The translations under genes were made by a program, and so were the position numbers. From positions 62,001 through 126,000 of the forward strand of contig JAFWMR010000010.1 in assembly GCA_017513905.1 (NCBI GenBank): DNA of 64,000 nt, written 5' to 3'. Positions 5,782 to 26,546 of this stretch are shown piece by piece; the first letter of the stretch is position 1; each line of letters begins with the position of its first letter. A model generated the notes under the pieces. That model worked only from the letters and a program-made list of their open reading frames with translations, searched no databases and was not told the origin of the DNA. The DNA comes from Candidatus Saccharimonadota bacterium (GTDB lineage Bacteria > Patescibacteriota > Saccharimonadia > Saccharimonadales > Saccharimonadaceae).

Positions 5782-5791
5782 TCGAAAATAC

Positions 5792-5822
5792 GACCGGCGG
5801 TTGAACTTGTCGGTCTTTTTTT
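5792..5822 (+). terminator. Intrinsic terminator after the first surface-protein gene
   Basis: GACCG at 5792-5796 pairs with CGGTC at 5811-5815 and is followed by seven T residues. It lies 10 bases after the stop codon of the upstream gene. Confidence 0.7.
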
Positions 5823-5947
5823 CGTCACAATACAAACACGTTGATAAAAATGGCAGAAAATAAGCGCCATTTACGCGAATATTGAATTTTCGGAAATCAC
5901 GTCTGTGGCATATAATAATCATAAGAAATGAAGAAAGGGCAACCACA

Positions 5948-6133
5948 ATGATCACCAAATCCGATTTACGTTTGTATCTGGATTCTCCAAGGCATCTTTG
6001 GGCCAAACACCATGATGCCTGGCATCCGCAGATTTCTGATTTTGACAAGAAAAATTCAGCTGATGGATATCGCGTGGAAGCCTTTGCTATGGATTATCTT
6101 CGCCGATATATAGCTGTTGACGGGAAATTGTAA
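5948..6133 (+). pseudogene. Truncated 5' copy of the DUF2779 nuclease gene
   Basis: Sixty-one codons from ATG 5948 are nearly identical to the first 58 residues of the intact gene at 24742 (MITKSDLRLYLDSPRHLWAK is shared exactly). Then a TAA interrupts where the intact gene continues with ELRTQQ. The DNA upstream of the ATG is also similar (AAGGG ribosome-binding region). Both the fragment and the intact gene lie about 170 bases after the end of a secreted-protein gene, so a block including that junction was probably duplicated and this copy then lost its 3' end. Confidence 0.85.
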
Positions 6134-6193
6134 TAGGCAATGATTTTGTGTTTCGTTGAACCAAACGATACAATTTAATAACCCTAGCCAAAT

Positions 6194-6275
6194 TGACACA
6201 CTTTAGACAAATGTATCATTTATGGTTCTATTACACGATTTTGTGAAAAATAAAATCTTCGTCTATTTGTGTCAT
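6194..6275. other. Composite TTACACGATT / TGACACA site, left
   Basis: This AT-rich stretch lies within a 362-base gap without an intact gene (6134-6495). It contains TGACACAC (6194-6201), TACACGATT (6232-6240) and TGTGTCAT (6268-6275). The same two words occur close together at 14.65-14.72 kb and at 45.65-45.80 kb. They are candidate recombinase or regulator binding sites near present or former element ends. Confidence 0.45.
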
Positions 6276-6310
6276 TTTTCAATTTGAACCATCTCTATTA
6301 CACCAAAAAA

Positions 6311-6333
6311 TAAGATCCCCTTAGGAGGATCTT
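6311..6333 (-). terminator. Hairpin with T-run on the minus strand
   Basis: AAGATCC and GGATCTT pair around an eight-base loop, and on the minus strand the hairpin is followed by ATTTTTTGG. It overlaps the stop codon of the small minus-strand remnant. Confidence 0.5.
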
Positions 6334-6428
6334 ACCGGCTTCCCAATCGCGGGCGTGCCTAAGTGTAATGGTGTCGAAATCACGTTGCCATTAATGTAAG
6401 TCCTCATTCCTGCGCCGTTTAGCGTGAG
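6321..6428 (-). pseudogene. C-terminal gene remnant or 28-35 codon ORF with its own terminator
   Basis: On the minus strand a frame of 35 codons (from ATG at 6406, 28 codons) encodes a peptide ending GTPAIGKPVRSS. Its TAA sits in the loop of a hairpin whose arms are AAGATCC/GGATCTT (6312-6333), followed on that strand by a T-run. A stop codon lies just upstream in frame. The combination of stop codon and terminator suggests the end of a broken gene. I do not recognise it. Confidence 0.3.
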
Positions 6429-6495
6429 TTATTGCTTTTCTTTCAGAAAGCGTTAGCGTATAATAATTGTAACGATAAACAGGAAAAACAATCTT

Positions 6496-7245
6496 ATGGA
6501 ACAAAAGATGAATACAAACATGGATGACGGCACGATGGTGGATGCTGCCGCCGGAGCCGGTAAAACTGGCAAAGGTATGATGGTCGGGATGATTGCATGC
6601 GCTGTTCTTGCTGTTGGTGGTATCGGCTTCGGAGTCTACGAGATGATTCAGACAAACTCTATCAAGCAACAAATCTCCGATCTTAAAGTGGAAATCAAGA
6701 ACCAGGACGGAACTACGACAACGCTTGAGACCGACAAGATCGAAGTTAAAGAAGATACCAAGACCGTCGTCATATCTGATCCTGCCGCAGCGGTCAACGC
6801 CAAGGAATACATCTATATTGGAGAATGGGGAATTAAGATCAAAATACCAGATACAGTAAAAAATGTCGGCTTCTTATACAATACAGACGGCGATTATTCT
6901 TCTCTCTATGTTTCCGCTCGCGTAACCGATGATAATACCGAAAACCCAGCTTTCAATGATAACTTTTCCGATATGTATTATAATTCGGGTGGACAGGGCG
7001 CTATCGGTATAATTAGAAATCCGCACAAATGCGCTATGGGAGAAATCGACGTTGAAGGAGACCCCGGTTCTGGAGTTGATTGCCCGATTATCCTTACGAA
7101 TTCCTTCGGAAAGGAAATCGGCATCCGGTATAGCCATCCACAAGCTATTTATTCTTCATCCGAAGAACAAAAAGAATGGGAGCTTAAAGCTGTTGGCGCC
7201 ATACAGGAGATGCTTTCTAATCCTGATAATTATTCCGCTATCTAA
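6496..7245 (+). CDS. Membrane-anchored extracellular protein of unknown function
   Basis: A 249-residue protein. Residues 1-27 are a polar cytoplasmic stretch with a GAGAGKTGKG segment (not a P-loop in a nucleotide-binding fold). About 28-50 is a single hydrophobic helix, followed by a short coiled stretch (SIKQQISDLKVEIKN). From about 90 onward there is a globular region with EYIYIGEWGIKIKIP and two Cys residues near 170-190. The likely topology is N-in with the C-terminal domain outside. A TATAAT at 6459-6464 and a weak CAGGAA before the ATG give a leadered mRNA. Its own terminator follows. I do not recognise the C-terminal domain; it is plausibly an envelope protein of the host lineage. 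Confidence 0.7.
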   Translation: MEQKMNTNMDDGTMVDAAAGAGKTGKGMMVGMIACAVLAVGGIGFGVYEMIQTNSIKQQISDLKVEIKNQDGTTTTLETDKIEVKEDTKTVVISDPAAAVNAKEYIYIGEWGIKIKIPDTVKNVGFLYNTDGDYSSLYVSARVTDDNTENPAFNDNFSDMYYNSGGQGAIGIIRNPHKCAMGEIDVEGDPGSGVDCPIILTNSFGKEIGIRYSHPQAIYSSSEEQKEWELKAVGAIQEMLSNPDNYSAI

Positions 7246-7253
7246 CAAGTTTC

Positions 7254-7275
7254 AGCCCCGCCCTGCGGGGCTTTT
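7254..7275 (+). terminator. Intrinsic terminator of the membrane-anchored protein gene
   Basis: AGCCCCGC (7254-7261) pairs with GCGGGGCT (7265-7272) around CCT and is followed by TTTT. It lies nine bases after the stop codon. Confidence 0.8.
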
Positions 7276-7276
7276 C

Positions 7277-7553
7277 TGACTAACACAATTCCTCCTTCTT
7301 TGCCCCATCCCAGAGTACAGTGTGTAAGTTCTTCCGGCGTGATAACAAGGAAGATGCGGGCATATCCTTTTAAGAAAGCTTTTTTGATGTTTCCCGTCAT
7401 TCGTTCTTTTCGCTCGACAGTTGGCACGATCCAGACTATAAGCGGAAACACACTGGTCGCCTGCTGTTCTCTGTTGGTCTGGTAGTATTCATGATAGCGG
7501 CGACATTTTTCTATGATCTTATTCTGACCTTCGGTCGCAAGATCCATTTCTAT
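7277..7553 (-). pseudogene. 3' fragment of a Replic_Relax (replication-relaxation) gene
   Basis: The minus strand encodes about 90 residues matching the C-terminal third of the intact protein at 16353-17183. IEMDL, IEKCRRYH.YY.TN.EQ.AT, WIVP and VITPE are shared in order. A TAG lies immediately upstream of the homologous stretch, and the frame then runs on into the terminator of the convergent gene. It is therefore a 5'-truncated remnant, not a functional gene. Together with the fragments at 5948 and 12169 it suggests a decayed relative of the island. Confidence 0.8.
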
Positions 7554-7629
7554 ACCCTACGTCAATTTTAGCATATTGCCGAACATGATTATGCTTGGGT
7601 TATGAATTTCTGTATGCTACAATCCTTTT

Positions 7630-7780
7630 ACTGAAACTTTTATTCGCGATCATAGTTTCAGCATCTTTACTCCATGTAAAGATTTCTATTATTGGATGCG
7701 GAAGAAGTGTCTCTCCGACCGATTCCTCATCTTTTCTACTAGAAACCGTCACAATGACCCGTGACGGCTTTTTGTTTTTT
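7630..7780 (+). ncRNA. Candidate structured small RNA
   Basis: An extended -10 (TGC at 7615-7617, TACAAT at 7618-7623) is followed after six bases by a run of perfect hairpins. CTGAAACT (7631-7638) pairs with AGTTTCAG (7654-7661). ATCTTTAC (7663-7670) pairs with GTAAAGAT (7676-7683). CCGTCAC (7746-7752) pairs with GTGACGG (7761-7767), followed by CTTTTTGTTTTTT. That gives a transcript of about 145-150 bases with a promoter and an intrinsic terminator but no credible ORF on this strand. A 67-codon TTG-started ORF lies opposite (7600-7803, minus) and cannot be excluded. I do not recognise a known RNA family. Confidence 0.45.
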
Positions 7781-7814
7781 GCAAAATAGTGTATTACATT
7801 CAAATAAAGTATGC

Positions 7815-7835
7815 TATACTAAGCATAAGTAGAGT
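7815..7835 (+). promoter_or_regulatory. Conserved promoter-leader element, copy 2
   Basis: The same 21-base element as at 2502-2522. TGC precedes TATACT, so it is an extended -10 promoter. A leader of about 70 bases follows, with GAGAGGTCAT at 7881-7890 before the ATG at 7901. It should drive the two tandem genes 7901-9832 and 9861-11993. Confidence 0.7.
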
Positions 7836-7900
7836 TGGTCAACAATATAAAATAAACAAGTAATAAAAGTTACTTAACTTGAGAGGTCATAGTTATTACC

Positions 7901-9832
7901 ATGTCAAACCATAAAGCATATCTAGGAGCAGGCTCTTTACTTAGCTTAACTCTTCTTTCTGTAGCCATCCTTTCTGCTCCCAAAGCTAATGCTGATACAT
8001 CTGCTACGGTAGATCTCACAGTTAATGTTCCTGCTGCTTGTTCTCTTACCCCAGCAAATACTAGTTTAACTAAGACTATTAATCCTGGTACAAGTGATAC
8101 TATTGGTACCAGTAATCTCAAAGCTGTTTGTAATGACCCAAATGGTTTTGCTATATATGCTATTGGCTATACTAACAATACTCATGGCAATACTGACCTT
8201 ATTACTGATCTAGGTACTGATTATAGCATCCATACTGGTACTGGCACTTCTGCTTCCAACTGGAATATGACCATTGCTAATGCAGAGGCTACTGGGAACT
8301 ATACTGCTACAATAGAAAATGGGTTCAACGAGCCTCATGTAGTTCCTGATATGAACACCAAAATCGCAACCGTCACATCAACTACTGACCAAACTATCGG
8401 CACTAACTTAACCGCTACTTTTGATGCTTACATTGCTCCCGATCAAGTTGCTGGTACTTATGAGGGGAAGGTGAAGTTTACGTTGGTGCATCCTTCTACT
8501 CATCAAGCTCCGATTAGTCGTCCGGCTATGCTGGATACAGGTATGAATGTCAACGCCAAGATGAAATCCTTAGCTGCTGACTCAAGCAAGACATATTCGG
8601 ATTCGGACAATCTCATCAAATCCATCCAGACTGCTGATGATCTCCCAGAAGGCTTTGAACCTACTGACGCTAACACAATCTCCTTAGCTGATTCAGAAAA
8701 CCCAGTCTATATTTTCTTCGATAATACCGACGATAAGGGTATTATGTATGTTTATTCCGGCAACGCTACGTCAATCATGAATCCGGATTCATCGTATCTA
8801 TTTAGCCGTATCGCAAATCTCTCCGCGGTTCCAGCCGTTTCCTTCTGGGATACTTCCAACGTAACAAATATGAGTTATATGTTCTCTGATGCTGGTCGCA
8901 ACGCTCGTGTCTTCAATCTCGACCTTTCTTCTTGGGATACTTCCAATGTAACAAATATAAATAATATGTTTTACTATACCGGTGAGTCAACCTCTACCTT
9001 CAATCTCGACCTCTCTTCTTGGGATACTTCGAGCGTAACAGACACGAGTAACATGTTTAACCATGCTGGCAGCAGCGCAACCGATTGGACTATTGTTGGC
9101 CTCTCTTATTGGGATACTTCAAGAGTAATAAATATGGAAAGCATGTTTTATCACGCTGGCTATAAAGCCACCAATTGGTCTATAGGTGATCTTTCTTCAT
9201 GGGATACTTCTAGTGTAACAAATATGCGTACCATGTTTTCTGATGCTGGTGGCAGTGCAACTAATTGGTCTATTGTTGGCCTCTCTTATTGGGATACTTC
9301 AAGCGTAACGGATATGTATGGCATGTTTATCGGTGCAGGCTCTGACGCTACCACCTTTATTCTTGATCTATCAGGCTGGAATACTTCCAGCGTAACAAAC
9401 ATGGGCAGCATGTTCTCTTATGCCGGCCGCAATGCTACCACTTGGTCTATCGGCAATCTCTCTTCGTGGGACACTTCAAATGTAACGAATATGTCTAATA
9501 TGTTTAGCAACACCGGCCATAACGTCACCACTTTCTCTCTCGATCTTTCATCATGGGATACTTCGAACGTAACGTATATGGGCAATATGTTTGATTGCGC
9601 TGGTTATAATGCCACTACCTTCTCGCTTAATCTTTCCAGTTGGAATACTTCTAGCGTGACAAATATGAGTAATATGTTTTACCGTTCCGGTTATAGCGCT
9701 ACTAACTGGTCTATAACTATTCCTCAGATCAATGGAAACAGCATCAGCAATACTACTAGTCAAATGTATGGAAGCACGATATCTACTTACGCTTCACCAG
9801 CCAGCGGCAAAAGTTTCACAATAGCGCAATAA
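7901..9832 (+). CDS. Secreted BspA-like protein (DUF285 repeats, no C-terminal anchor)
   Basis: A 643-residue protein. The signal peptide (1-about 31, ending ANA) and N-terminal module (about 32-205) are close to those of the three paralogues in this window (SATVDLTVNVP, ACSLTPANTS, KVKFTLVHPS shared). A short linker with a MLDTGMNVNAKMKSL stretch resembles a segment of the first paralogue. From about 316 to 605 there are about eleven DUF285 repeats near 27-30 residues long (pattern LSSWDTSNVTNMSYMF). The protein ends soon after without a hydrophobic helix or LPXTG, so it is secreted or held non-covalently. GAGAGGTC lies 13 bases before the ATG. The next paralogue follows after 28 bases, so the pair is probably an operon. 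Confidence 0.85.
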   Translation: MSNHKAYLGAGSLLSLTLLSVAILSAPKANADTSATVDLTVNVPAACSLTPANTSLTKTINPGTSDTIGTSNLKAVCNDPNGFAIYAIGYTNNTHGNTDLITDLGTDYSIHTGTGTSASNWNMTIANAEATGNYTATIENGFNEPHVVPDMNTKIATVTSTTDQTIGTNLTATFDAYIAPDQVAGTYEGKVKFTLVHPSTHQAPISRPAMLDTGMNVNAKMKSLAADSSKTYSDSDNLIKSIQTADDLPEGFEPTDANTISLADSENPVYIFFDNTDDKGIMYVYSGNATSIMNPDSSYLFSRIANLSAVPAVSFWDTSNVTNMSYMFSDAGRNARVFNLDLSSWDTSNVTNINNMFYYTGESTSTFNLDLSSWDTSSVTDTSNMFNHAGSSATDWTIVGLSYWDTSRVINMESMFYHAGYKATNWSIGDLSSWDTSSVTNMRTMFSDAGGSATNWSIVGLSYWDTSSVTDMYGMFIGAGSDATTFILDLSGWNTSSVTNMGSMFSYAGRNATTWSIGNLSSWDTSNVTNMSNMFSNTGHNVTTFSLDLSSWDTSNVTYMGNMFDCAGYNATTFSLNLSSWNTSSVTNMSNMFYRSGYSATNWSITIPQINGNSISNTTSQMYGSTISTYASPASGKSFTIAQ

Positions 9833-9860
9833 AAACAAGAAGATAAAAGGAAACCAACAA

Positions 9861-11993
9861 ATGTACAAAACCAACTATAAACCCTTAGGCTCACTCCTTG
9901 CTCTTACTCTTCTTTCTGGAGCCATCCTTTCTACTCCCAAAGCTAATGCTGATACATCTGCTACGGTAGATCTCACAGTTAATGTTCCTGCTGCTTGTTC
10001 TCTCACTCCAGCTAATACTAGTCTAACTAAGACCATTAATCCTGGTACAAGTGATACTATTGGTATTTCTAACATTAAAGCTCTATGCAATGACGCTAAT
10101 GGCTTTGCTATCTATGCTGTAGGCTATACCGACAGCGAATACGGCAATACTGACCTTATTACCGACCTTGGTACTAACTATAGTATTCACACTGGTACTG
10201 GTACATCTGCTTCCAACTGGAACATGACTATTGATAATGATGACGATGTAGTAAATGACCATGTTGCTACTATAGAAAATGACTTTGATGAGGCTAGCAA
10301 CATTCCGGCTACCTATACCAAGATTGCTTCCTTTGCTTCTGCTACTGATCAATCCATTGGCTCTAACTTAACTGCACAGTTTGACGCTTACATTGCTCCT
10401 AACCAACCTGCTGGGACTTATCAAGGGAAGGTGAAGTTTGCATTAGTCCATCCGAGCGACACTCAAGCCCCAGATCGTTTTTACGGTGTAACTATGCAGA
10501 CTGTGGCTCAATGGGGTGGAGAAGTCGCCGGTGGGCAGACAGTTACAGCTATCGATAAACGTGATGGAGAAGAATACACAGTCACAAAACTCGATGATGG
10601 GAATCTATGGATGACAAAAAACTTAAGATTGAATTTGAAGACGGCCAATATCACAGTGGAAAATACAAATAACCCAACAGAGTACTTCATGAGTGCGCTG
10701 AGTATACCCCCCGAACCGACAGATGTGTGGTGTAACGATAATTCTGCAGAATGTATTAATAAGATTTCTTTCGATGTAAGCAAAATCGGAGACAATACCG
10801 TTGATCCTTCGGGACATACTTATGATGAGTATGGAGCTTACTATAACTGGTTTACTGCAACAGCTGGGAATGGAACATATGAAATGACAAGCGGTAATAC
10901 TACTGGTGATATATGCCCCTCTGGTTGGCATTTGCCAAGCGGAACAGAGGACGGAGAGTATTATAGATTAAAGCAATTGACTGCAGAGCAGAATGGCGAT
11001 TTAATTACCGGATCAGCTCATTTTGTTTATTCTGGAGATGCACGTTATCCATCCTATTTTGGAATGACAGGCTTTTATTGGACATCATCGGCTGATTCGG
11101 GTGGTGGATCTAGTACAAATTATGTCGCGAAAATGGCTTGGATTAATAATGGGACGTTGAATCCTAATAGTCAGTATCCCAAAACAGGTAGTTTTACAGT
11201 ACGTTGCGTTGCAGATCGGAGGACGATGCAAAATGTATCCAAATGGGGGAACGATGTTCTTCAGGAGCAAACGGTCACTGCCATTGACGAACGTGATGGG
11301 CAAGAATACACTGTCGCAAGACTTGCTGATGGTAAACTATGGATGACAAAAAATCTAAGGCTTGACTTGCAGACGGCAAATATAACCGCTACGAATACAA
11401 ATAACCCTACCGCAGAGTTTCTTAGCGGCGTTGCCAATCATCCAACACCCAACAATGGTGATTGGTGTAACAATTTGGCGGCAACATGCACTGATAAAAT
11501 ACAATTCTCGACAATAAGTATCAATGATCCAACTGTCGATTCAAATGGAAATTCATATGATGAATACGGAGTATACTATAACTACTATACAGCATCAGCT
11601 GGAAATGTAAGCGCCAGCGTAACAAGCGCTGCCGTAACAAATGGTGGCGGTGAAGCTGCAGGAGATATTTGTCCAAAAAACTGGCATCTACCAAAGAAAA
11701 CTGATTATCCCACACTTGATCTTGCTATGGGAGGCTCAGGACAGTCTCCTCAATGGACTACAGATGCAGTACAGCGATGGTTTGCATCTCCTTCAAATTA
11801 TGTGACTTCTGGCAGCATGGATTACTTTGGTCAATATAACCGTGGTAATACCGGTTATTACTGGACGTCAACTATTTATCCTAGGTCAGGAATGAATGTT
11901 TACGGAACTGCAATTGGTAGTAATTATATTGATTTAGGGACATACGTATTAGGCACGTACTTCGGGTACTCAATTCGATGCGTAACAGAATAA
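9861..11993 (+). CDS. Secreted protein with two FISUMP domains
   Basis: A 710-residue protein. The signal peptide and N-terminal module are again those of the family (to about residue 205). Two FISUMP (Fibrobacter major paralogous) domains follow in tandem, about 208-455 and 456-710. Each has TVTAID.RDG.EYTV, LWMTKNLRL, DEYG.YYN, GDICP..WHLP and GYYWTS in order, and ends in RCV. FISUMP domains are extracellular modules, often of paralogous surface proteins in host-associated bacteria; their ligands are unknown. AAAGG lies 11 bases before the ATG. It is probably co-transcribed with the DUF285 paralogue just upstream. No clear terminator follows. Confidence 0.85.
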   Translation: MYKTNYKPLGSLLALTLLSGAILSTPKANADTSATVDLTVNVPAACSLTPANTSLTKTINPGTSDTIGISNIKALCNDANGFAIYAVGYTDSEYGNTDLITDLGTNYSIHTGTGTSASNWNMTIDNDDDVVNDHVATIENDFDEASNIPATYTKIASFASATDQSIGSNLTAQFDAYIAPNQPAGTYQGKVKFALVHPSDTQAPDRFYGVTMQTVAQWGGEVAGGQTVTAIDKRDGEEYTVTKLDDGNLWMTKNLRLNLKTANITVENTNNPTEYFMSALSIPPEPTDVWCNDNSAECINKISFDVSKIGDNTVDPSGHTYDEYGAYYNWFTATAGNGTYEMTSGNTTGDICPSGWHLPSGTEDGEYYRLKQLTAEQNGDLITGSAHFVYSGDARYPSYFGMTGFYWTSSADSGGGSSTNYVAKMAWINNGTLNPNSQYPKTGSFTVRCVADRRTMQNVSKWGNDVLQEQTVTAIDERDGQEYTVARLADGKLWMTKNLRLDLQTANITATNTNNPTAEFLSGVANHPTPNNGDWCNNLAATCTDKIQFSTISINDPTVDSNGNSYDEYGVYYNYYTASAGNVSASVTSAAVTNGGGEAAGDICPKNWHLPKKTDYPTLDLAMGGSGQSPQWTTDAVQRWFASPSNYVTSGSMDYFGQYNRGNTGYYWTSTIYPRSGMNVYGTAIGSNYIDLGTYVLGTYFGYSIRCVTE

Positions 11994-12168: not shown

Positions 12169-12405
12169 TTAGATGTGGTAATCAACAATTGTCAGAATCC
12201 ACTCCGGATCGGCGGTATCGATAAATTGCTCCTTATAGTGGTTTACCCACTCGTATTCATCTTTTGCCGAAGCAGAAGATAATCCAAACCAGCCCATAGA
12301 GCCTTCCTCGTGCCAGACACCATCAGGCGTAATAACGGCGAATGTAGAAAATGCTACGTTACACTTGGCATAAGTTTCCTTATCTTTTTCTAACGAATCA
12401 TAAAA
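12169..12405 (-). pseudogene. 3' fragment of the MSHF-type island gene
   Basis: Reading the minus strand gives about 78 codons ending TADPEWILTIVDYHI and a TAA at 12169-12171. This matches the last 75 residues of the intact protein at 15426-16115 (TYA....FAVITPDG.WH..GSMGWFG, HYKE.FIDTADPEW). An in-frame stop precedes the homologous part and no start or leader remains. It is a 5'-truncated, diverged copy, too short to function as the full protein. Confidence 0.85.
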
Positions 12406-13157: not shown

Positions 13158-13270
13158 TATAATAATAATACACCATATAAAACTCTGATTTCTAAAGAGA
13201 ACAGAATCCGATTCGTATTATGCTACATATAAAACATAATAATAGAAATAAAATAAGTAATGGAGAAACA

Positions 13271-14440
13271 ATGCCCAAACACCATACACGAAATTATATT
13301 CAAGCAATTGTTAAGAAAATAGAAGACGGGGTATCGATTCACGAAATTCATGATCAATACGCCATTCCTCAGAGCACAATATATAAATGGTTGTCAAAGT
13401 ACAGAAAACACAAAACACCATACGGCGAATTTACAGTATATAAATACCTATTATTAGAAAAGAAGTGCACCGACTATAAGAAAATGTTGGAAATCGTTAT
13501 TAATTCTCCTTTCATTCAAAATACGCCAATCACAATCAGGGAGTCATATATGCTTGGACTTCAAAGAAAATATAAATATCAAAACTATCTAGTTTGCGGC
13601 GCATTCGGAATTCATCATACTACTTACCATCACTTTCTTTATGACAACAAAGGCAACAACGCTTGGTTTGTGGAACGAAAAAAACGTCTAGAAAAGCTAA
13701 TCTCGAAAATCTTTATGGAAAGCGGAAAAAGTTACGGTGCGTCAAAAATTCGCTATATATTAAATAGCAAATATAAAGAGAAAATTTCAGAAAACTATAT
13801 TCGAGAGATTATGCGTGATTTAGGTCTTAAAGGCTCGTCCCCTAAGAAGCGTAAACGCGACACGAATGAAGCATTCAAAAGAAAAAGAGAGAAAGAAAAC
13901 CTAATAAAGCAAAACTTTGACGCTACCAGACCAAACCAGAAGTGGGTGTTAGATTGCAAAATGTTTTATTGTAAAGATCGACGCGTTGAAATATGCGCAA
14001 TTGAAGACTTATTTGCTAGAAGAATAATCGCATACCGATTAGGCAGTAAAGAATGTGGGCGTCTAGTCTGTGGAACATTAAACGACACATTCTCTGTCAG
14101 GAACCCAGAGAAAGGGCTGATTATCCATAGCGACGGCGGAGCAACAAACCGATCGATAAGCGCAAACCGCATTATCACGAGGCATAAGGCGAAACACTCG
14201 TATTCAAGAAGCAGAAACCCCTTTGATAATGCAGCAATTGAATCATTCTTTTCTCGTTTCACGGCGGAATTCATATACGATGCTTACAACATGCATCCCT
14301 TTTCATCCATAAAAGAAATGAAGATGAGGGTAGAGAAATTCATCCATGATTACAATTACAACCGCCCACACGGACATAATGATGGGCTGCCGCCAGTAAC
14401 TGCCGAAAGGATGTATTTGATTGGCGTAAGAAAAAAATGA
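13271..14440 (+). mobile_element. IS3-family (IS150-like) transposase, single fused frame
   Basis: A 389-residue transposase from ATG 13271, which has TGGAGAAAC just upstream; the frame opens earlier at 13220. Residues 1-50 hold a helix-turn-helix (IHEIHDQYAIPQSTIYKWL). About 150-210 resemble the HTH_21 segment (GKSYGASKIRYIL). From about 215 comes the rve catalytic core: D in WVLDCKM, D in IIHSDGG, and E in NAAIESFF with 35 residues between the last two, the DD(35)E pattern. OrfA and OrfB of this family are usually joined by a -1 frameshift; here one frame covers both. Ends are unclear: ATTCGTATTA at about 13209 and the reverse complement of TATTACGAAT near 14454 are possible short inverted ends. 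Confidence 0.85.
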
Positions 14441-14650: not shown

Positions 14651-14718
14651 TTCTACACGATTCGTAAATAGTGTAGAATAGCTATTTTAACTCGCCAAAT
14701 GACACATTTTACACGATT
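14651..14718. other. Candidate island end with inverted repeat and TACACGATT / TGACACAT words
   Basis: TTCTACAC (14651-14658) and GTGTAGAA (14671-14678) form a perfect inverted repeat. Beyond it lie TGACACAT (14700-14707) and TTTTACACGATT (14707-14718). The same two words, on the opposite strand, occur at 45.73-45.80 kb just past the recombinases. It lies in a 456-base gap without an intact gene, immediately left of the first island gene. An end of the roughly 31-kb island here is inference. Confidence 0.45.
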
Positions 14719-14812
14719 ATAATTCAATAAGGTTAGAATTATCCTTTATTCTCACATCTGTAAATGGATGGAAAAACGACATGTTCTCGCCTCCTTCCTC
14801 AAGATCGTAATA

Positions 14813-15296
14813 CCCAAAGCTCACAGGTGCACAGGGAGAAGAAACACGAGGATGATTTAGCAAAGGTAATTGGGCAAAGGATCTCTTAGCCAGAAGCTAG
14901 ATATCTGCACTGCAAGCAGCCGATAGACCATAAAATCTACCCAAATCTTCCCACATAGCCTCTGGAGTTTCTTCCTCAAGAACCTTCCATGTTGGATAGT
15001 TGTATTCGAGCATGATTCTTGCGACATCCTTAGGATCCACCATCAGTTGGCAAAAATGATTTGTGTTGGTGTATCCTTCGAGCATGATTGGCGATTGCTC
15101 CTCCGCAGAGGCAATCTTTTTGAGTCGCTCCTCTTCTGCGTGGATTGCTTCGTTTACGAGTTTTATGGCCCTGTCGAGCTCTTTTGCAGTTGTTTTCTTT
15201 TGATTGGTTTCTTCTCCTGTCATGGATATTCCTTTCGAGTTTATGTTGATACTTTTCGTCCCGCGTTTCTCTCCCTGTGCACTTCTGAACTTTGGG
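14813..15296. repeat. Gene cassette bounded by 27-bp inverted repeats (24/27)
   Basis: The plus-strand sequence 14813-14839 (CCCAAAGCTCACAGG... ending GTGCACAGGGAGA) recurs inverted at 15270-15296 with three mismatches. Weaker similarity continues inward as far as an AAAGGA like the ribosome-binding site of the enclosed gene. The 3' flank therefore looks like a degraded, mirror-image copy of the gene's own leader. No target-site duplication is visible. Confidence 0.65.
14897..15223 (-). CDS. Small hypothetical protein
   Basis: A 108-residue acidic soluble protein. The N-terminal half is a charged probable helix (KELDRAIKLVNEAIHAEEERLKKIA). The C-terminal half contains HFCQLMVDPKDVARIMLEYNYPTWKVLEEETPE-type sequence with several aromatic residues. 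I do not recognise the family. GAAAGGAATATCC before ATG 15223 is a good ribosome-binding site. It lies within a cassette bounded by inverted copies of its leader and points the same way as the next gene upstream, 15426-16115. Confidence 0.6.
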   Translation of the reverse strand: MTGEETNQKKTTAKELDRAIKLVNEAIHAEEERLKKIASAEEQSPIMLEGYTNTNHFCQLMVDPKDVARIMLEYNYPTWKVLEEETPEAMWEDLGRFYGLSAACSADI

Positions 15297-15313
15297 TTTT
15301 GTCACTGGATTCC

Positions 15314-16234
15314 CCAGCAGCAGAGAGTATGCTAGGAGTGAACGGATTGCTGGTTTGCTGATAGCGATTTAGTGGTTTGCTTTGTAAGGTACAGGTGATT
15401 CCAGTTTTCTTTCGGTTGGAATCCCTTATATGTGACAATCAACAATTGTCAGTATCCATTCCGGGTCAGCAGTATCAATGAACCGCTCTTTATAATGAGT
15501 ACGCCAGTCTCGTTCCTCCTCAGTCGAAGCGGAGTCCATTCCGAACCATCCCATACTGCCTTGTGCATGCCATTTCCCATCAGGAGTGATAACGGCATAC
15601 GTGTGGAAACAGGCATAAACTGTGGCATAGGTATCTCTGGTCTTATATATCTTGACTAGCTCATCCTTGTCGACAAACGGATCTGGCGGCAGACCATCAA
15701 CTGTTTTTCCTTCAACCACCGCATCCCATTCAACGAGCGCATCGTTATAGAAATTCGGGTTTGGAGAAAAATCAATGTCAGATACTCTGGCTAAGTCTAC
15801 TTTTTCTTCAGAGCTTTTGATTGTCAGCAGTTTGTTCCATCTGCCTCCAATCGTCCACCAGTCCCATTTACCTTCAGGATTGCTGAGATAGATAATCCCA
15901 TCTTTTTCCGGTTTGTTTCTTGCCACAATCTTCTTCATGCATGTTATCTCGGTACAGTTTTTACAATCATCATAATGACGTCGGGCGAACTGAATAGCTC
16001 TCTTTTTCGAGTGACTATCGCGAGGATCGATGCTGATAACTTCCTCATAGGGGTCAAGCAGTTCTTCGATACTTTGATCCTCCTTATGGAATACTGCTAC
16101 TGTAAAATGTGACATATTCGGGTCTCCGGTTGGTTAAAGTTAATTTGGTTCATATTGTTCCTTTATAGGTTAAGGTTGCTATTTCTATCAGCTGACCGTT
16201 TTCCGTTTTCCCCTAGCATACTGTCTGCTGCTGG
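15314..16234. repeat. Second gene cassette bounded by 23-bp inverted repeats (22/23)
   Basis: The plus-strand sequence 15314-15336 (CCAGCAGCAGAGAG... ending TATGCTAGG) recurs inverted at 16212-16234 with one mismatch. Similarity continues inward: AACGG, GCTGATAG, an AAGG.ACA stretch, GGA..CCC and an ATATG occur in the same order and spacing on both sides, about 115 bases in all. On the right this is the leader of the enclosed gene up to its ATG; on the left it runs in mirror image up to the gene's 3' end. The first cassette lies 17 bases away. Confidence 0.7.
15426..16115 (-). CDS. Conserved phage/ICE-type hypothetical protein (MSHF...VDCHI)
   Basis: A 229-residue soluble protein. It begins MSHFTVAVF, has WDWWTIGGRWN near residue 90, AVITPDGKWH near 170, and ends DPEWILTIVDCHI. 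These marks recall a family of uncharacterised phage and mobile-element proteins that share the YxIGGRW and ITPDG.W motifs and the VDCHI ending; the function is unknown. Four Cys residues (DCKNCTEITC, then VDC) could bind metal. GGAGACCCGAAT before ATG 16115 supplies the ribosome-binding site. TATGCT on the minus strand at about 16215 may be the promoter -10. A broken copy of its 3' part lies at 12169-12405, and inverted leader copies bound the gene. Confidence 0.75.
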   Translation of the reverse strand: MSHFTVAVFHKEDQSIEELLDPYEEVISIDPRDSHSKKRAIQFARRHYDDCKNCTEITCMKKIVARNKPEKDGIIYLSNPEGKWDWWTIGGRWNKLLTIKSSEEKVDLARVSDIDFSPNPNFYNDALVEWDAVVEGKTVDGLPPDPFVDKDELVKIYKTRDTYATVYACFHTYAVITPDGKWHAQGSMGWFGMDSASTEEERDWRTHYKERFIDTADPEWILTIVDCHI

Positions 16235-16352
16235 AGAGGGGCGTGGTTCGCGTTTTGTGGCCTTTCCTGGCCGATAGCAGAGGGAACTGCGATACCGGCT
16301 GGCCCTCAAGCTATTGGTGGCACGCGTGGGGCATTTGGGCGATGTATAGCGT

Positions 16353-17183
16353 TTAGCATAAATCCTCCTTCTTCACGCCGTTGAGTAAGATATCGTGTAG
16401 CCTTTCCGGGGTGATCACAATGAACATATGCACATAGCGGTCACCAAAGGTCTGCTTGATCGCGGAAACGATATTTTGCTTCCTTCTCTCGCTCGGTACG
16501 ATCCACATCACCACTGGAAACTTGCCAGTGGCAAGCTGCTCCTTGTTGGTTAAATAGTATTGATGGTAGCGGCGACACTTTTCTATCACAACATGGGTCG
16601 ACTCTGTGTCCAGATCCATTTCTATAAACCATCTGTCCCGGTATTCTCCACACAGGGTTTCTGCGTAAAGGTCAGGTCTTAGAGAAATGGTCTTACCATC
16701 CTTCTGGTATACCCTCCAGCAATCCGGCTCCATCTCCATGCGGTTAATTGACAGCTGCTTTTCCGCTTTACAGATCTCCGAGAATTGAAGATGGCATTCC
16801 GCTACCGCAATGGTGTGCCTGACTGAACTGGTAGTAGGCTCAACGAACCTTCTGCGTTTATCTTCCGGTTCGGTATCAAGCGTCAGTAACCGGTATCCGG
16901 CCTCAGTGAGATGCCAGATCAGTTGCTGTGGGCCATAACAGCCGAGAATGTATTGCTGGGCGAGGTGATCAATCAGGCCGTATGCTTTGAGCCGACGCAG
17001 GATTTTTGTGGTGTGCGTCTTGGAGGCTTGGAGCGAAGCATGTCCGTCTGCAAAGAACATTCGTCTGAGCTGATCGGTCTTGAGTAGCTTGAAGAACAGC
17101 AGAGTTTTGAGGATTCGGCGTTCGACTTCCGTGATGCGCATCTCGATTTCTCCGAGCTGCCGGTTGCTGATCCGAGGGCTCAT
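16353..17183 (-). CDS. Replic_Relax family protein
   Basis: A 276-residue protein resembling the replication-relaxation family (PF13814), DNA-binding proteins of plasmids and conjugative elements thought to help initiate transfer or replication. Residues about 15-100 form a winged helix: EVERRILKTLLFFKLLKTDQL, then KILRRLKAYGLIDH. The rest is a mixed fold with FIEMDLDTES, a catalytic-looking D/E patch, CRRYHQYY and WIVPSERR. GGAGGTACCCC before ATG 17183 is a strong Shine-Dalgarno site. It lies directly downstream of the TraG-like ATPase gene, separated only by a small ORF with which it shares ATGA. A truncated relative lies at 7277-7553. Confidence 0.75.
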   Translation of the reverse strand: MSPRISNRQLGEIEMRITEVERRILKTLLFFKLLKTDQLRRMFFADGHASLQASKTHTTKILRRLKAYGLIDHLAQQYILGCYGPQQLIWHLTEAGYRLLTLDTEPEDKRRRFVEPTTSSVRHTIAVAECHLQFSEICKAEKQLSINRMEMEPDCWRVYQKDGKTISLRPDLYAETLCGEYRDRWFIEMDLDTESTHVVIEKCRRYHQYYLTNKEQLATGKFPVVMWIVPSERRKQNIVSAIKQTFGDRYVHMFIVITPERLHDILLNGVKKEDLC

Positions 17184-17396: not shown

Positions 17397-19583
17397 TTAA
17401 CTCCCCCTCCCGAGATTCACGTCATTAGGTGGAGTGTCAGCCATAGTAGGCTGATCAGCTGCATCGGCATTACTCTTTTCTCGTACCGCATCATAGAGCT
17501 TGAGAAACTCAGCATCCACTTCCTCAGCTGGTTTACCATAGCGTTTCATGGACTCAGCTTTGAGTTCTGCCGCCATTCGGATCGGAGGATCAGGTGCCTT
17601 AGTCACTCCTTGCATCCACCCTGTCGCTCTCCGGTTCTGCATGATATTGGTATAGACTTGGTACCTCGGTAGCATCATAAAATCATCTGGTGTTAGCTCC
17701 GGGGCGAAGTGAGCGATCTCCTTTGCGTCAGTGCCGTTCAGTCCAAAGATGATTTTGTTCCTGGCATTGGCATCCACCCCGGCTCTGATTTCAGGAGGAA
17801 GCTGCCCGCGGTATTGGTGGGCCAGGGTCATACCAACTCCCAGTCCTCTTGCCTGAGCGAGAGCATCCGCCAGATCTGTCGGCAGTGACAGATAGTCCTG
17901 AAGCTCGTCAATATAAACCGATACCAAATGGCGTTTTTCCGGTGGAAGGTTCGCCCGTGACAAAGCCAGCGTCCATGTCAGGCCCACAATGAGTGAACCA
18001 AGTAGCCTAGCTGACTCACCTCCAATGATTCCACGGTTCAGTGGTACCAGAACGATCTTTCTTTTCTGGAACAACTCCATCAAGTCGAACTTTGGTTTTG
18101 CCTGTCCGAGCACCGCTCTCAGCCCCGGCCGGAATACAAACTGTTGCATCTTATTGAGCACCGGCGCGATGTTAGTATTACGCTCGGATTCCTTCATAGC
18201 CTCATACTGTTGCCAAAAGGGAAGTAGCCCAATGCGATCATGACATTGGCTGACCACCCGGTGACGGAATGCCTCATCCGTGAGCAGCATTGGGAGCCAA
18301 AGTAGTGTGGCTTCCTTTTCTTCGGTTAGGGTCAAAAGTCCGGCAGACAGAATCTGCTGTGTTCTGATACCCCACGACTCGGAGAAGAGTTCTTTCATGA
18401 CGGTGAGGATTGCGTCTGCCACCAACTCTTTTTTGTTGAACCCTTTGAAGGCCAGCGGATTGAACCCTACCGGGCTTGGATCGCTCGGATCAATTACTAC
18501 TACATCTCCCCGGCGTTCCTCTGGGATACGCTCAAGGATATTGGTGACCAGATCAGCTTTCGGGTCGAGCACCAGCACAGAACGTCCAGCCCGGATATCG
18601 GAGAGAATCAAATGTTCCATCACCGTTGATTTACCTGAACCGGTGGGCCCGAGGATAATCGTGTGCTCCAAGGAATCTAAAGGAGAGATGCTGATAGGCT
18701 TCTGTGTACTGTTCAAAGCTCGCGCAAAAGTACGATCCTGATTTGGTTTGTCCGGAGCCTGATACCAGCGCGGCGGTAGCAAACGTTTCGGGTGAAGACC
18801 TGGCACGCCGGGAAGATCATCTTCGCCAGCTGGGAGCATCAGAAACGGCGCGATTTCTTTGACCGACAGTCTCAAATTGATTGTCCATGGAATATGCACT
18901 CCGTCGATATAATACGGTTCCTCAGGTTTAGCTCGGATGTTTACTCCAGCCGATTCGAGCACCCTAAGAGCAGAAACAATCTGATCAACTCTGCCCACCG
19001 CGTTTTTGCCGCTTGCTCCTACCCGGATAATCACTTGGAACATGAATTGATCCAGTTTTTCCTTCGCGGAACGGACACTGTCAGAGGTCGCTTCGCGGAT
19101 GCCGAACAGGGCCAGATCCAGCCATGATTCGTGCGGATCTTGTAATTTATGAGGCGTCGGGCTGGGAGAAAATCCTCTGCCGAGTACCACCTGAATAACG
19201 GACTCCTCGCCTGTCCGGGTTGCAGCCAGTGCCGCCAATCCGGAACGGATCACGCTACCAGTTACATCGATATTGAGGGAAAGAATGGGTTTGCTGACCG
19301 TAAGATACCGTGCTTCATCCATCGGTTTACGATTCGGTTTCTCGCATTCGAGGAACTCAATGCTGCCGTGAGCGGCAAATACTTCACGGAGCTTGCTGCT
19401 GTATTCCGGAGCAATACCTACCTTATAGTTCACTTGCCCGTCACGGCTTCTGACTTCCATAACCATATAGCCTCGCGGTGTCAAGCTCCCAATATGGGAA
19501 AGCAGAGCGTATATGTCTTCCAGCTCAAACGGTCGTTCCCAATTCATCTCATACCAAGAGAAATCTCTACTGGGTTTCTTCAT
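17397..19583 (-). CDS. TraG/VirD4-like conjugative ATPase
   Basis: A 728-residue ATPase. ATG 19583 is chosen because GGAGGT lies just upstream of it; a longer start at 19595 would fall in that site. Walker A is GPTGSGKST (about 311-319), the DPKADL strand follows, and Walker B is YIDELQDY (about 559). The C-terminal FGLNGTDAKEIA and YTNIMQN.RA stretches fit the type IV secretion coupling-protein/HerA-FtsK superfamily. There is no N-terminal membrane helix, unlike VirD4. The 64-residue two-helix membrane protein encoded just upstream may supply the anchor. It would pump DNA during transfer. No relaxase or VirB4 gene is visible in the window. Confidence 0.8.
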   Translation of the reverse strand: MKKPSRDFSWYEMNWERPFELEDIYALLSHIGSLTPRGYMVMEVRSRDGQVNYKVGIAPEYSSKLREVFAAHGSIEFLECEKPNRKPMDEARYLTVSKPILSLNIDVTGSVIRSGLAALAATRTGEESVIQVVLGRGFSPSPTPHKLQDPHESWLDLALFGIREATSDSVRSAKEKLDQFMFQVIIRVGASGKNAVGRVDQIVSALRVLESAGVNIRAKPEEPYYIDGVHIPWTINLRLSVKEIAPFLMLPAGEDDLPGVPGLHPKRLLPPRWYQAPDKPNQDRTFARALNSTQKPISISPLDSLEHTIILGPTGSGKSTVMEHLILSDIRAGRSVLVLDPKADLVTNILERIPEERRGDVVVIDPSDPSPVGFNPLAFKGFNKKELVADAILTVMKELFSESWGIRTQQILSAGLLTLTEEKEATLLWLPMLLTDEAFRHRVVSQCHDRIGLLPFWQQYEAMKESERNTNIAPVLNKMQQFVFRPGLRAVLGQAKPKFDLMELFQKRKIVLVPLNRGIIGGESARLLGSLIVGLTWTLALSRANLPPEKRHLVSVYIDELQDYLSLPTDLADALAQARGLGVGMTLAHQYRGQLPPEIRAGVDANARNKIIFGLNGTDAKEIAHFAPELTPDDFMMLPRYQVYTNIMQNRRATGWMQGVTKAPDPPIRMAAELKAESMKRYGKPAEEVDAEFLKLYDAVREKSNADAADQPTMADTPPNDVNLGRGS

Positions 19584-19595
19584 GGCGACCTCCAA

Positions 19596-19790
19596 TCAGA
19601 ATTTGCTTCCTTTATAGTATTTGTGAACCCGGATGACGACGACAATCACTCCGGTGATGACAGAAAGCAGAATTAACCAACCCCAAACACTCTGGATCAT
19701 GCACACCCCCGTCCGCACTAGCCAAGCGGCTAGTGCGAAGAGAGCGGCAGATTCAAGGATTTTTTGGAAGAAGGATTTTTGCGGGATCAT
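19596..19790 (-). CDS. Small two-helix membrane protein
   Basis: A 64-residue protein with a hydrophobic helix at about 12-30 and another at about 33-54, ending in a short basic tail (HKYYKGSKF). Its ATG overlaps the stop of the methylase gene upstream (ATGA), with GGAGATGAG as ribosome-binding site, and the ATPase gene follows 12 bases after its stop. Position and topology suggest a membrane partner of the soluble TraG-like ATPase; that is inference. Confidence 0.65.
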   Translation of the reverse strand: MIPQKSFFQKILESAALFALAAWLVRTGVCMIQSVWGWLILLSVITGVIVVVIRVHKYYKGSKF

Positions 19791-20443
19791 TGTGGCTCAT
19801 CTCCTTCAAGGTCGTTTTTCTTAGCCAGCTTTATTGCCTTACTGTAGTTACCAACCGGATAGCCAGGAATGAAGATGTCACTGCCACCCTCGGCCTCCAG
19901 GCCCCAAATCCGCCAGCCTTTATTGGTCGGGCGTTTACGAGCGAACAGTTCGACATAGGAGCGATTCTTATATAGCCGTTCAATGATGGCATACATTTCT
20001 TCCGGCTTTTTGCTGTGTTCCTGGCGGGGAAGAAACTCCCAGTTCGGTTGTGCCCGGAAATCCACTGGCATCTTCCCCTTAACTCCGAGCAGAAGCGTTT
20101 CCGAAGCGTTCCTGAGGTACTGGCCGAGGCCCATTTGGGATTTGACCCAGTAGAACGGACTCCGATAAGAAAATCCCCAGCTTTTGAGCACATCCAGCCC
20201 TTCCTGCAGCAGGCCATTCGTCACCCACAGGAAACAGGCAGCGTCTTCGTTACACAGATCAGCGACAGGCATGGCTTTGATCCTATTGAGCGTCATCAAT
20301 TCATAGTGCTGGCTGGCTCCGAAATGGCCTTTCTGATTAATGTCCCAGGGCGGATCAGCGTAGATCACATCAGCTTTGGGCTGATTGACGGCCACAAGGT
20401 TCTCCTCAGGGTTGATACTGTTTTGTATTCTATTGTGTTTCAT
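19787..20443 (-). CDS. MT-A70 family adenine-N6 methyltransferase
   Basis: A 218-residue protein with the catalytic DPPW motif at residues 30-33 (IYADPPW), then CFLWVTN, YWVKSQMGLGQYLR and ETLLLGVKGK. These are characteristic of MT-A70-like DNA or RNA adenine methylases. SAM-binding residues of the beta-class order are expected near the SRPHSKKPEEMY-like C-terminal segment (EHSKKPEEMYAIIE). Such orphan methylases are common in phages and conjugative elements, where they modify the element's DNA against restriction. AAGGACAAGG lies upstream of ATG 20443, and a TTGACA-containing palindrome (20489-20503) sits at promoter distance. It heads the methylase / membrane protein / ATPase / Replic_Relax run. 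Confidence 0.85.
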   Translation of the reverse strand: MKHNRIQNSINPEENLVAVNQPKADVIYADPPWDINQKGHFGASQHYELMTLNRIKAMPVADLCNEDAACFLWVTNGLLQEGLDVLKSWGFSYRSPFYWVKSQMGLGQYLRNASETLLLGVKGKMPVDFRAQPNWEFLPRQEHSKKPEEMYAIIERLYKNRSYVELFARKRPTNKGWRIWGLEAEGGSDIFIPGYPVGNYSKAIKLAKKNDLEGDEPQ

Positions 20444-22382: not shown

Positions 22383-23051
22383 ATGATAAAACCAAACGAG
22401 AAAACTATTATGTTCAAATACAAAGCTAACTCAAACAAAAAAATAAGTGACAAAAAGAATCCGATGGTGGATTCACAGTATTGCTATTACCAATCGTTCG
22501 GAAGAGTCATCGTCGGATTGGAAAAAGCCTTGGAACTTCATCAAGGAAGAATCGAATACGTTACAGATGAGGACATTTTAGAATACTCCGGTACTGATCC
22601 GGAAGAATATGATCGTTTGTTCAAAAGTCCAGAAAGGATCCTCCGTGATGTTCGTGAAGAGATTTATCAAATGATGTCCGATGCGGCTATTATGCCTGAA
22701 GGATCGTCGAGGGAAGATCGATTATCCTTTGCTTTTCGGTTCCTACAGAAAAACTGTCCAATGGTCAGAGTCCTGCAAAAAGTGAATGATCATCATATAT
22801 GGAGAATGAGCCTCAGAAAAGTCGTTGCGAATACCGCAACGGATTGGCCTCCGGTCAATACTCCGGCATGGGAATACCTATATGCAAATTTCTGTTGTCA
22901 ATTCGCCCTAATTATGGAAAAGTGGGAAACTGCTAACTTCTCCGATTCTCGCCTGAAAGACTGTGTTCGGCTCGCTGATGTTTGGCTGAGTGCAGACGGT
23001 ATGCTAGGAGATACTTCAGAAAGCCTACTGGATGATTGGACAGAATCATAA
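22383..23051 (+). CDS. Possible TetR-like regulator
   Basis: A 222-residue soluble protein. Residues about 35-90 (ALELHQGRIEYVTDEDILEYSGTDPEEYDRLFKSPERILRDV) follow the spacing of a TetR helix-turn-helix, which usually reads as a T..DIA..AGVS...FY.YF.SKE.LL pattern. The match is weak and the recognition helix is atypical. The helical C-terminal part would be the ligand and dimer domain. It is encoded divergently from 21555-22271 with a palindrome between them, which supports a regulatory role. An ATG at 22410 after GAGAAAACT is an alternative start. The end of the gene overlaps the promoter region of the fourth secreted protein. Confidence 0.45.
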   Translation: MIKPNEKTIMFKYKANSNKKISDKKNPMVDSQYCYYQSFGRVIVGLEKALELHQGRIEYVTDEDILEYSGTDPEEYDRLFKSPERILRDVREEIYQMMSDAAIMPEGSSREDRLSFAFRFLQKNCPMVRVLQKVNDHHIWRMSLRKVVANTATDWPPVNTPAWEYLYANFCCQFALIMEKWETANFSDSRLKDCVRLADVWLSADGMLGDTSESLLDDWTES

Positions 23052-23079
23052 AAAAGCTCTTGTTTTTAGAAAAGTGTGT

Positions 23080-23100
23080 TATACTAAGCATAAGTAGAGT
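23080..23100 (+). promoter_or_regulatory. Conserved promoter-leader element, copy 3
   Basis: The 21-base element of the secreted-protein family, preceded by TGT (extended -10). GAGAGGTCATAA at 23124-23135 precedes the ATG at 23144. It shows that this gene inside the island shares regulation with the three paralogues on the left. Confidence 0.7.
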
Positions 23101-23143
23101 TGTAATCAATACAAAAAATAATCGAGAGGTCATAAAACTCACT

Positions 23144-24571
23144 ATGCATAGTTATAAAAAAACTTTTCTTGGAGGAGGGCTGTTGAGTCTTACTCTTCTT
23201 TCTGGCGCAGTTCTTTCTGCTCCCAAAGCCAATGCCGATACATCTGCCACAATAGATCTCACAGTTAATGTTCCTGCTGCTTGTTCTCTCACTCCAGCCA
23301 ATACTAGTCTAACTAAGACCATTAATCCTGGTACTTCAGAAACTATCGGAACCGCTAATCTCAAAGCTGTTTGTAATGACCCAAATGGTTTTGCTATTTA
23401 TGCTGTAGGCTATACCAATGAAGAATATGGTAATAACTATCTCACTACTACTCTTGGTGAAGACTATAAGATTGCTACAGGTAATGTAGCTTCTCCTTCT
23501 ACTTCACAATGGAATATGACTATTGGTATTGATTCTACTATTGCTAATAACCATGTAGCTACTATAGAAAACCAATTTGAAGAAGTTCATGAAGTACCAG
23601 AAACATATACCAAAATAGCCTCTCTTAACTCCACTACCGATCAATCTATTGGTGCTAACCTCACTTCAACCTTCAATGCTTATATTGCTCCAAATCAAGC
23701 TGCTGGTACTTATGAGGGGAAGGTTAAATTTATGTTGGTGCATCCGAGTACTGAAGCCCCAGATACTACACCACTTGGCTTAGCTTATGCAAGCAGAAAC
23801 AAAACTAAAGTTAATGGTTACTACTCAATGCAAGATATGTCTTCTGACATTTGCGGTGCTTTGTCTATTGGTGATGAAGGAAGCTTAATCGATACTCGCG
23901 ACAATACTGTTTACCCTATTGCTAAGCTTGCCGATGGAAAGTGCTGGATGACGAAGAATTTAGGACTAAATCTTAGCCAAGCAAATATAACCAAAGAAAA
24001 CACGAATAATCCATCTGAAGCTCTCATGGCGGCAATAGATAGCAAAACGATTCCGGAACCAAATACTGGGAGTTGGTGCTCAAGTGACATCTCAGACTGC
24101 CAAGACAGAGTAAACTATAACCCTCCATATTATAACTGGTATACAGCCACTGCCGGCCACGGTCTCACGTCACTCAATAATACTACGCCGGTATCCGGCG
24201 ATATCTGCCCAAGCGGTTGGCGTTTACCTACGAGCGATTACTACCTAAACCAACCAAATAACGAATACGGTCAGTTAGCCAGTGTATTAGTCGGGCATCT
24301 GCCAGAAAGCGGATACAGTTCATATAGTGACTCTGAGGGGATTGCCGTATCTATTCTTCTTCGAGAGCAGCCAAATAATTTTTCGTTTGATGGGTATTAT
24401 GTTTACGGAAGGATAGAACAGTCTGGAACGACGGGGGCTTATTGGACATCTAGTGCATATGGCGCCTCCCGTGCTCTCTCCTTGTGGTTTACAAGCAATT
24501 ATGTTCAGCCTGGTACTGGTTATTATAGTATGAAATACTACGGCATCCCGATGAGATGTTTGGCAGAATAA
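23144..24571 (+). CDS. Secreted protein with one FISUMP domain
   Basis: A 475-residue protein from ATG 23144, 13 bases after GAGAGGT, as in its paralogues; an ATG at 23036 lies upstream of the promoter and is excluded. The signal peptide ends ANA near residue 31. The N-terminal family module runs to about 205 and ends KVKFMLVHPS. A single FISUMP domain covers about 225-475 (DTRDNTVYPIAKLADGKCWMTKNLGL, then YYNWYTATAG, GDICPSGWRLP, GAYWTSS, MRCLAE). There is no membrane anchor. It lies inside the mobile island although its nearest relatives flank the island, and the DUF2779 gene follows it as a fragment of that gene follows the first paralogue. Confidence 0.85.
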   Translation: MHSYKKTFLGGGLLSLTLLSGAVLSAPKANADTSATIDLTVNVPAACSLTPANTSLTKTINPGTSETIGTANLKAVCNDPNGFAIYAVGYTNEEYGNNYLTTTLGEDYKIATGNVASPSTSQWNMTIGIDSTIANNHVATIENQFEEVHEVPETYTKIASLNSTTDQSIGANLTSTFNAYIAPNQAAGTYEGKVKFMLVHPSTEAPDTTPLGLAYASRNKTKVNGYYSMQDMSSDICGALSIGDEGSLIDTRDNTVYPIAKLADGKCWMTKNLGLNLSQANITKENTNNPSEALMAAIDSKTIPEPNTGSWCSSDISDCQDRVNYNPPYYNWYTATAGHGLTSLNNTTPVSGDICPSGWRLPTSDYYLNQPNNEYGQLASVLVGHLPESGYSSYSDSEGIAVSILLREQPNNFSFDGYYVYGRIEQSGTTGAYWTSSAYGASRALSLWFTSNYVQPGTGYYSMKYYGIPMRCLAE

Positions 24572-24666: not shown

Positions 24667-24741
24667 ATCAACGAATAGTTAATTTCTTACTTCTGAGATG
24701 TCGTCATACAATTGTCTATCAATTTAGAAAGGGTAAGTACC

Positions 24742-26480: not shown

Positions 26481-26485
26481 TCGAT

Positions 26486-26503: not shown

Positions 26504-26546
26504 ATGAAGGCTACGATCGTCTTCGCGAGAAAGGACACGTGTCAAT

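Follow-up and report, generated by a model that had tools for sequence, protein, structure and literature searches.

Base pairing between the two flanks of one gene is known from icaR of Staphylococcus aureus, in which 5'UTR-3'UTR pairing comes with cleavage by RNase III (PMC3868564). The gene cassettes described here, two of which lie in the 64,000-nt stretch of Saccharibacteria DNA that we analyzed (the window), resemble icaR in that the flanks of one gene can pair across its ORF and that a double-strand RNase would be a natural partner. In icaR, a short 3'UTR motif reportedly covers the Shine-Dalgarno sequence. Unlike this single-gene case, the cassettes comprise dozens of unrelated cargo genes within a mobile element, and their frame of 25-36 bp leaves the RBS free. 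RNase III processing stalks also occur in rRNA precursors and T7 early mRNA. There too, a unit within a polycistronic RNA is bounded by long inverted repeats, and we know of no such stalks for the cargo genes of mobile elements.

Integron cassettes carry a folded attC site that has a conserved unpaired position and lies beside the gene (PMC3053210, PMC8946536). The site has a conserved core, is located at the 3' end, and is accompanied in integrons by an IntI integrase and attI. Like integron cassettes, the cassettes reported here are tandem, promoterless cargo in one orientation that is gained and lost as units, and like attC their arms are weak in motif but strong in structure, with a conserved position that is unpaired. 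They differ from attC in that the arms lie around the gene, not beside it, and have no fixed crossover point. ORF maps contained no integrase beside the arrays, and neither IntI nor attI was found. The pdif modules of Acinetobacter plasmids are small gene modules with sites of about 28 bp in inverse orientation (PMC6449649, PMC13141974). Our cassettes are likewise small gene modules within inversely oriented sites, but whereas dif/pdif sites bind XerC/XerD and are alike across modules, the cassette arms are partner-specific (18.5 vs 6.0, see below).

In pLS20-family plasmids, establishment genes have upstream inverted repeats, EGeRS1 (PMC8708921). In both cases, structured inverted repeats lie close to variable accessory genes carried by mobile elements; EGeRS1, however, is an upstream region of 400-600 bp that does not frame a gene, while the arms described here frame the cassette gene. 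Mobile insertion cassettes and MITEs carry passenger genes between inverted repeats without a transposase. Our cassettes, in contrast, have no shared ends and no convincing target duplications, and within the window each cassette's repeat was present only as its own two copies.

The open-licence literature on passenger cassettes, pdif, attC, Replic_Relax-type and Saccharibacteria elements, leading-region and anti-restriction repeats, and UTR pairing yielded no description of this arrangement, in agreement with a preliminary description of the locus that knew of no named element of such form. Rfam had no family matching the frames in five related loci and the first 18 kb of the window. Enclosing unrelated cargo genes one by one in a long-range, coevolving helix would be a novel way of adding genes to a mobile-element operon, with the frame possibly serving as an RNA insulation or processing module or as a structure-based cassette system. 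The frame architecture spans two phyla and gives a signature by which accessory genes of unknown function, possibly for establishment or anti-defence, can be found computationally.

Two framed genes and their element

Both window cassettes are read from the minus strand. Gene 1 (14897-15223; 108 aa, no Pfam family) is enclosed by a 3' arm at 14809-14839 and a 5' arm at 15270-15300, which are 31 nt long, 87% complementary, and have 430 nt between them. Gene 2 (15426-16115; 229 aa, phrog_10079 of unknown function) is enclosed by 36-nt arms at 15311-15346 (3') and 16202-16237 (5') that are 86% complementary with 855 nt between them and have a central mismatch (C against G at CAGA[C/G]AGTATGC). 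PADLOC and PHROGs gave no convincing function for the cassette genes. The inverted repeats that the preliminary description had placed around the two genes were found where it located them and were far above shuffled expectation, with arm alignment scores of 60 (cassette 1) and 62 (cassette 2) compared to maxima of 39 and 28 in 500 shuffles. As inverted repeats they scored 19 and 21 in the window, and the best score in 40 shuffled 64-kb windows was 16. Beyond its two copies, the repeat of the second cassette occurred nowhere else in the whole genome or in 79 relatives, and 80 genus and order genomes had no dispersed copies of the repeat arms.

The outer repeat on the 3' side of each gene had also been said to continue inward as a degraded mirror image of the gene's leader. 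Within the window this mirroring was weak. With the arms removed, the inward alignment of cassette 1 scored 20 vs 17.9 ± 3.3 in shuffles, which is not significant, and that of cassette 2 was marginal (24 vs 15.1 ± 2.6, shuffle maximum 26). Across the family, however, the inner flanks of 33 related frames aligned better with their true partner than after partners were swapped (p = 2e-11, a value inflated by relatedness and by the similarity used to find pairs), and the mirrored leader is therefore real for the family. A reported truncated copy of gene 2 was confirmed on the minus strand at 12172-12393, with 65% identity over residues 156-229, and this fragment carries no repeats.

The cassettes come after the cistron of a Replic_Relax (PF13814) protein (16353-17183, minus strand), in the window element as in related elements. 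A TraD/HerA-like coupling ATPase (17397-19595), which we used as the marker for finding related elements, and an MT-A70 methyltransferase (19787-20443) that is part of the same element are also on the minus strand. The integration module consists of two large serine recombinases (42515-45653, plus strand), named by sequence inspection and by analogy with the related loci L022 and L025, and a tRNA-Leu (45937-46023) adjoins them on the far side of the element. This set of genes, comprising the integrase, relaxase, and coupling ATPase expected of an integrative and mobilizable element, points to an element that is integrative and probably mobilizable. The window lies in a Saccharibacteria-type genome of 0.92 Mb, and by name the closest relative of the element was from a Candidatus Saccharibacteria bacterium.

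Several other features of this region were recorded. Directly after the gene-1 frame, the RBS GGAAGGAGG precedes what appears to be a truncated remnant of the next cistron (14717-14782, minus strand; 21 codons, MSFFHPFTDVRIKDNSNLIEL and a stop). An IS3-family transposase at 13220-14440, between the decayed and intact parts of the element, may have caused this truncation. A fragment of a second Replic_Relax gene (7311-7553, minus strand, 53% identity), together with the gene-2 fragment, suggests a decayed related element beside the intact one. The island also carries type I restriction-modification-like genes and a helicase-like ORF (24712-36426), and 2485-11993 and 23036-24571 encode paralogous secreted repeat proteins whose signal regions (SLTLLSGAxLSxPKANADTSATVDLTVNVP) are nearly identical. 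A third repeat pair in the window (20548-20582/22310-22344) was rejected as a frame: it is the self-palindrome GGCGGGAnnTTCCCGCC, has a further copy at 38722, and more likely represents an operator. The palindrome occurs three times in the element (20551, 22325, and 38722; 0.9 expected with 3 mismatches), at least two of these copies are intergenic and upstream of genes, and it is probably the operator of an element regulator.

Frames across the element family

We gathered 96 related loci with an alignment of the ATPase, covering Clostridia, Saccharibacteria, Actinobacteria, and viral contigs. Elements of cultured hosts are represented, for example, by Massiliimalia massiliensis (L058, L090) and Mediterraneibacter agrestimuris (L034). 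At least 22 related elements, integrative and probably mobilizable, from Clostridia and Saccharibacteria carried such frames. The framed elements share the Replic_Relax protein, the TraD/HerA-like ATPase, MT-A70, and paired serine recombinases, and their hosts are gut Clostridia and Saccharibacteria. The non-redundant set comprised 45 arm pairs around small cargo genes, with a gap of 282-1144 nt between the arms. Inverted-repeat pairs with a score of at least 18 numbered 21 downstream of the ATPase vs 3 upstream and 0 in shuffles of the related loci, and 27 of 595 ORFs downstream of the ATPase were framed vs 0 of 848 upstream. We consider it next to certain that the cassettes are a real class.

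Only variable cargo was framed, including a DUF5049 protein, while core genes (the methyltransferase, the recombinases, and amidoligase-like genes) were unframed. Many elements of the family had no frame at the cassette site. The more distant Saccharibacteria relaxase loci contained no frames, and the actinobacterial relatives (L086-L107) contained only chance-level or in-ORF pairs. Frames were often tandem, with about 0-150 nt between neighbours: L062 had at least five, and L069 and L071 had three each, with 11-41 nt between neighbours, while the three frames of L177 were more widely spaced (104-152 nt) and those of L180 directly abut, the 3' arm of one cassette lying against the 5' arm of the next.

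Whole framed units differed between related elements (L034 vs L092 and L075, L046 vs L040, L048 vs L035 and L043), and this gain and loss supports the earlier view of the two window genes as cassettes with different repeats. Inserted segments reached about 6-23 nt past the arms, with no clear target duplication and no fixed crossover point visible. Within the cassettes, most genes carried their own RBS, the 5' arm lay a median of 70 nt before the start, and the RBS of the next cistron followed within tens of nt after the 3' arm. Every cassette gene that was read had the orientation of the operon. Invertible units had been suggested in the preliminary description, and a gene between inverted repeats in an element that encodes serine recombinases is the layout of an inverton-like switch flipped by a site-specific recombinase; this explanation is not supported because the operon orientation was found wherever a cassette gene was read. 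The repeats are moreover imperfect with a conserved central difference, and we give such switches almost no credence.

Framing follows element context, not gene identity. Homologues of gene 1 were framed in L034 (11257-11646), L177 (1563-1952), and L180 (2060-2401), and homologues of gene 2 in L029, L077, and L177, with quite different arm sequences in these other elements. The same genes without repeats in related genomes had been named in advance as evidence against the cassettes. Relatives of gene 1 from the same genus were indeed unframed outside this type of element, but homologues inside it were framed. A search of viral contigs with gene 2 alone gave no match, and an alignment of the framed homologues retrieved 64 homologues of genes 1 and 2. 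All four that lie beside Replic_Relax or the ATPase were framed (scores 23-33), compared with 0 of the 60 elsewhere (scores of 12 or less).

Partner-specific pairing of the arms

All arms had one loose motif in common (CCAAGGGCTTGgcGCATGyAAGCCGG, about 15 bits) with partial local dyad symmetry (GGCTTG-N7-CAAGCC). With regard to Frpo-type single-stranded promoters, inspection of the consensus showed no spaced -35/-10 pair. A family-wide motif with a dyad would suit cassettes that carry, at each end, a DNA site recognised by a regulator or recombinase, as in pdif-like modules or paired operators, with the arms remaining unpaired. Sites of this kind should be equally alike across cassettes. Instead, partners matched each other: the local arm score was 18.5 for the two arms of one cassette, 6.0 for arms from different cassettes of an element, and 4.0 in shuffles. 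Covariation within local hairpins of an arm was also weak (2 of 8 column pairs), and we regard unpaired DNA sites as improbable.

The same scores bear on passenger-gene mini-transposons, another reading of the preliminary description, in which MIC- or MITE-like units with terminal inverted repeats are moved by a transposase in trans. Gene-sized units within inverted repeats of 25-36 nt and without a transposase inside have this appearance. The reading is nevertheless not supported because arms from different cassettes of an element show little similarity, because target duplication is not convincing (absent for cassette 1, and limited to 4 nt with shifted ends for cassette 2), and because pairing is maintained across deep divergence. 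Cassettes were furthermore found only beside the core genes of the element. Mini-transposons are thus a very unlikely explanation.

Pairing was retained while the arms changed. In orthologous cassettes, an arm and its own partner paired at a mean of 22.5 of 25, and chimeric combinations at 18.4. For gene 1 of the window and its homologues in L034, L177, and L180, own pairing was 22.5-23.5 and chimeric pairing 14.0-14.5; for gene 2 and its homologues in L029, L077, and L177 the values were 22-24 and 12-20.5. Orthologues with >80% protein identity differed by single-arm changes only, and no position had changed in both arms. This pattern favours a helix that evolves step by step over arms homogenised by gene conversion. 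The partial mirroring of the leader by the inner flank could be taken as a scar of head-to-head (inverted) leader duplication, as was initially proposed. A motif shared across cassettes and phyla and evolution by compensation are not expected of scars, and for these reasons the duplication reading is not supported; we see hardly any prospect for it.

Mismatches in the sense strand differed between the centre and the outer parts of the arms. Outer mismatches comprised 55 G-U and 23 A-C (p = 2e-4) and central ones 0 G-U and 18 A-C (Fisher p = 1.5e-8), where covariation p-values are inflated, as arms were found by similarity and related cassettes are non-independent. The centre was mismatched in 30 of 45 frames. 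The central bias is mostly due to a C, conserved in the 3' arm, that stands opposite a base other than G, and it is no independent proof of RNA. With position ignored, wobble in sense vs antisense (33 vs 29) was uninformative, the signal appearing only when centre and flanks were separated, and duplex energy did not differ significantly between sense and antisense (p = 0.11). The G-U excess could also come from single-stranded DNA folded on the same strand, or partly from a coding-strand C-to-T bias. Partner-specific compensation and the outer sense-strand G-U pairs together point to a selected sense-strand helix as opposed to a dead transposon, a switch, or a scar, and we hold selection for sense-strand pairing of the arms to be highly probable.

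Pairing as RNA or as single-stranded DNA

Our proposed mechanism is an mRNA panhandle. In this family, small accessory genes are inserted after the Replic_Relax cistron in operon orientation, each with complementary 5' and 3' arms. In the polycistronic transcript, the 5' arm would pair with the 3' arm and place each cargo cistron (RBS and ORF) in its own closed RNA loop. The loop-closing helix would measure ~25-36 bp, extending in some elements to 70-80 nt of gapped pairing towards the RBS. It would act as a processing and insulation stalk for a double-strand RNase such as RNase III, which would recognise or cleave it, and stalk processing would leave each cargo gene with a message of its own.

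We infer from the gene order that one transcript carries both arms. Complementarity of the sense strand with compensatory evolution, as expected of UTR-UTR pairing or an RNase III stalk, was found. The predicted folds contained the arm-arm pairs in the MFE structure with mean pair probabilities of 0.82 (cassette 1) and 0.91 (cassette 2), and arm pairing dominated the MFE of both window cassettes also inside a 1.7-kb transcript. RNase III is encoded in the host genome, and a helix of such length with a central internal loop suits this enzyme. The framing of variable cargo only, and not of core genes, would be unexpected for a general role in mRNA processing and speaks against the panhandle. We lean slightly towards an arm helix that acts as RNA, put even chances on cargo cassettes with a cistron-closing mRNA panhandle as the whole explanation, and offer the RNase III stalk tentatively, as the less probable part of the proposal.

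The main and serious rival to the mRNA panhandle is a cassette site of folded single-stranded DNA. Here the sense strand would fold arm to arm during transfer or replication, and a recombinase or relaxase would move the cassette in the way that an integron integrase acts on attC. As expected of such a site, whole framed genes come and go at the same positions and form tandem arrays of fixed orientation, but the insertions extend past the arms (about 6-23 nt) without a visible fixed crossover point. The arms combine a weak shared motif with strongly partner-specific pairing, and their conserved central mismatch recalls the extrahelical bases of attC; they enclose the gene, however, when an attC-like site would adjoin it. 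Confinement of framing to variable cargo agrees with a mobile cassette, as does the abutment of one cassette's 3' arm with the next one's 5' arm in L180. At L124 8301-8984, about 610 bp carrying a gene on the reverse strand have been inserted between direct, non-identical copies of a 5' arm, which possibly reflects recombination at an arm. Against movement as single-stranded DNA, no dedicated tyrosine recombinase was identified, and stepwise compensation has kept the arms paired in orthologous cassettes as well as in mobile ones.

Pairing of the sense strand is supported by the data, which cannot distinguish RNA from single-stranded DNA. We judge a folded single-stranded-DNA site unlikely, though well ahead of the other alternatives. 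Slightly less probable still is a new gene-cassette system in which cargo would lie in the loop of its own folded recombination site and travel as single-stranded-DNA hairpins from one mobilizable element to another in Clostridia and Saccharibacteria, recognised by structure rather than by sequence.

Two minor observations concern individual loci. A 3'-type arm directly abuts a 5' arm at L034 11131-11196 and L180 1951-1999, and the resulting local hairpin would be a competitor of the long-range frame. Separately, L029, from a Saccharibacteria genome, contains a 245-nt inverted repeat (14422-14666/16922-17166) with clustered substitutions, many of them in one arm towards A, which could be the template and variable repeats of a diversity-generating system.
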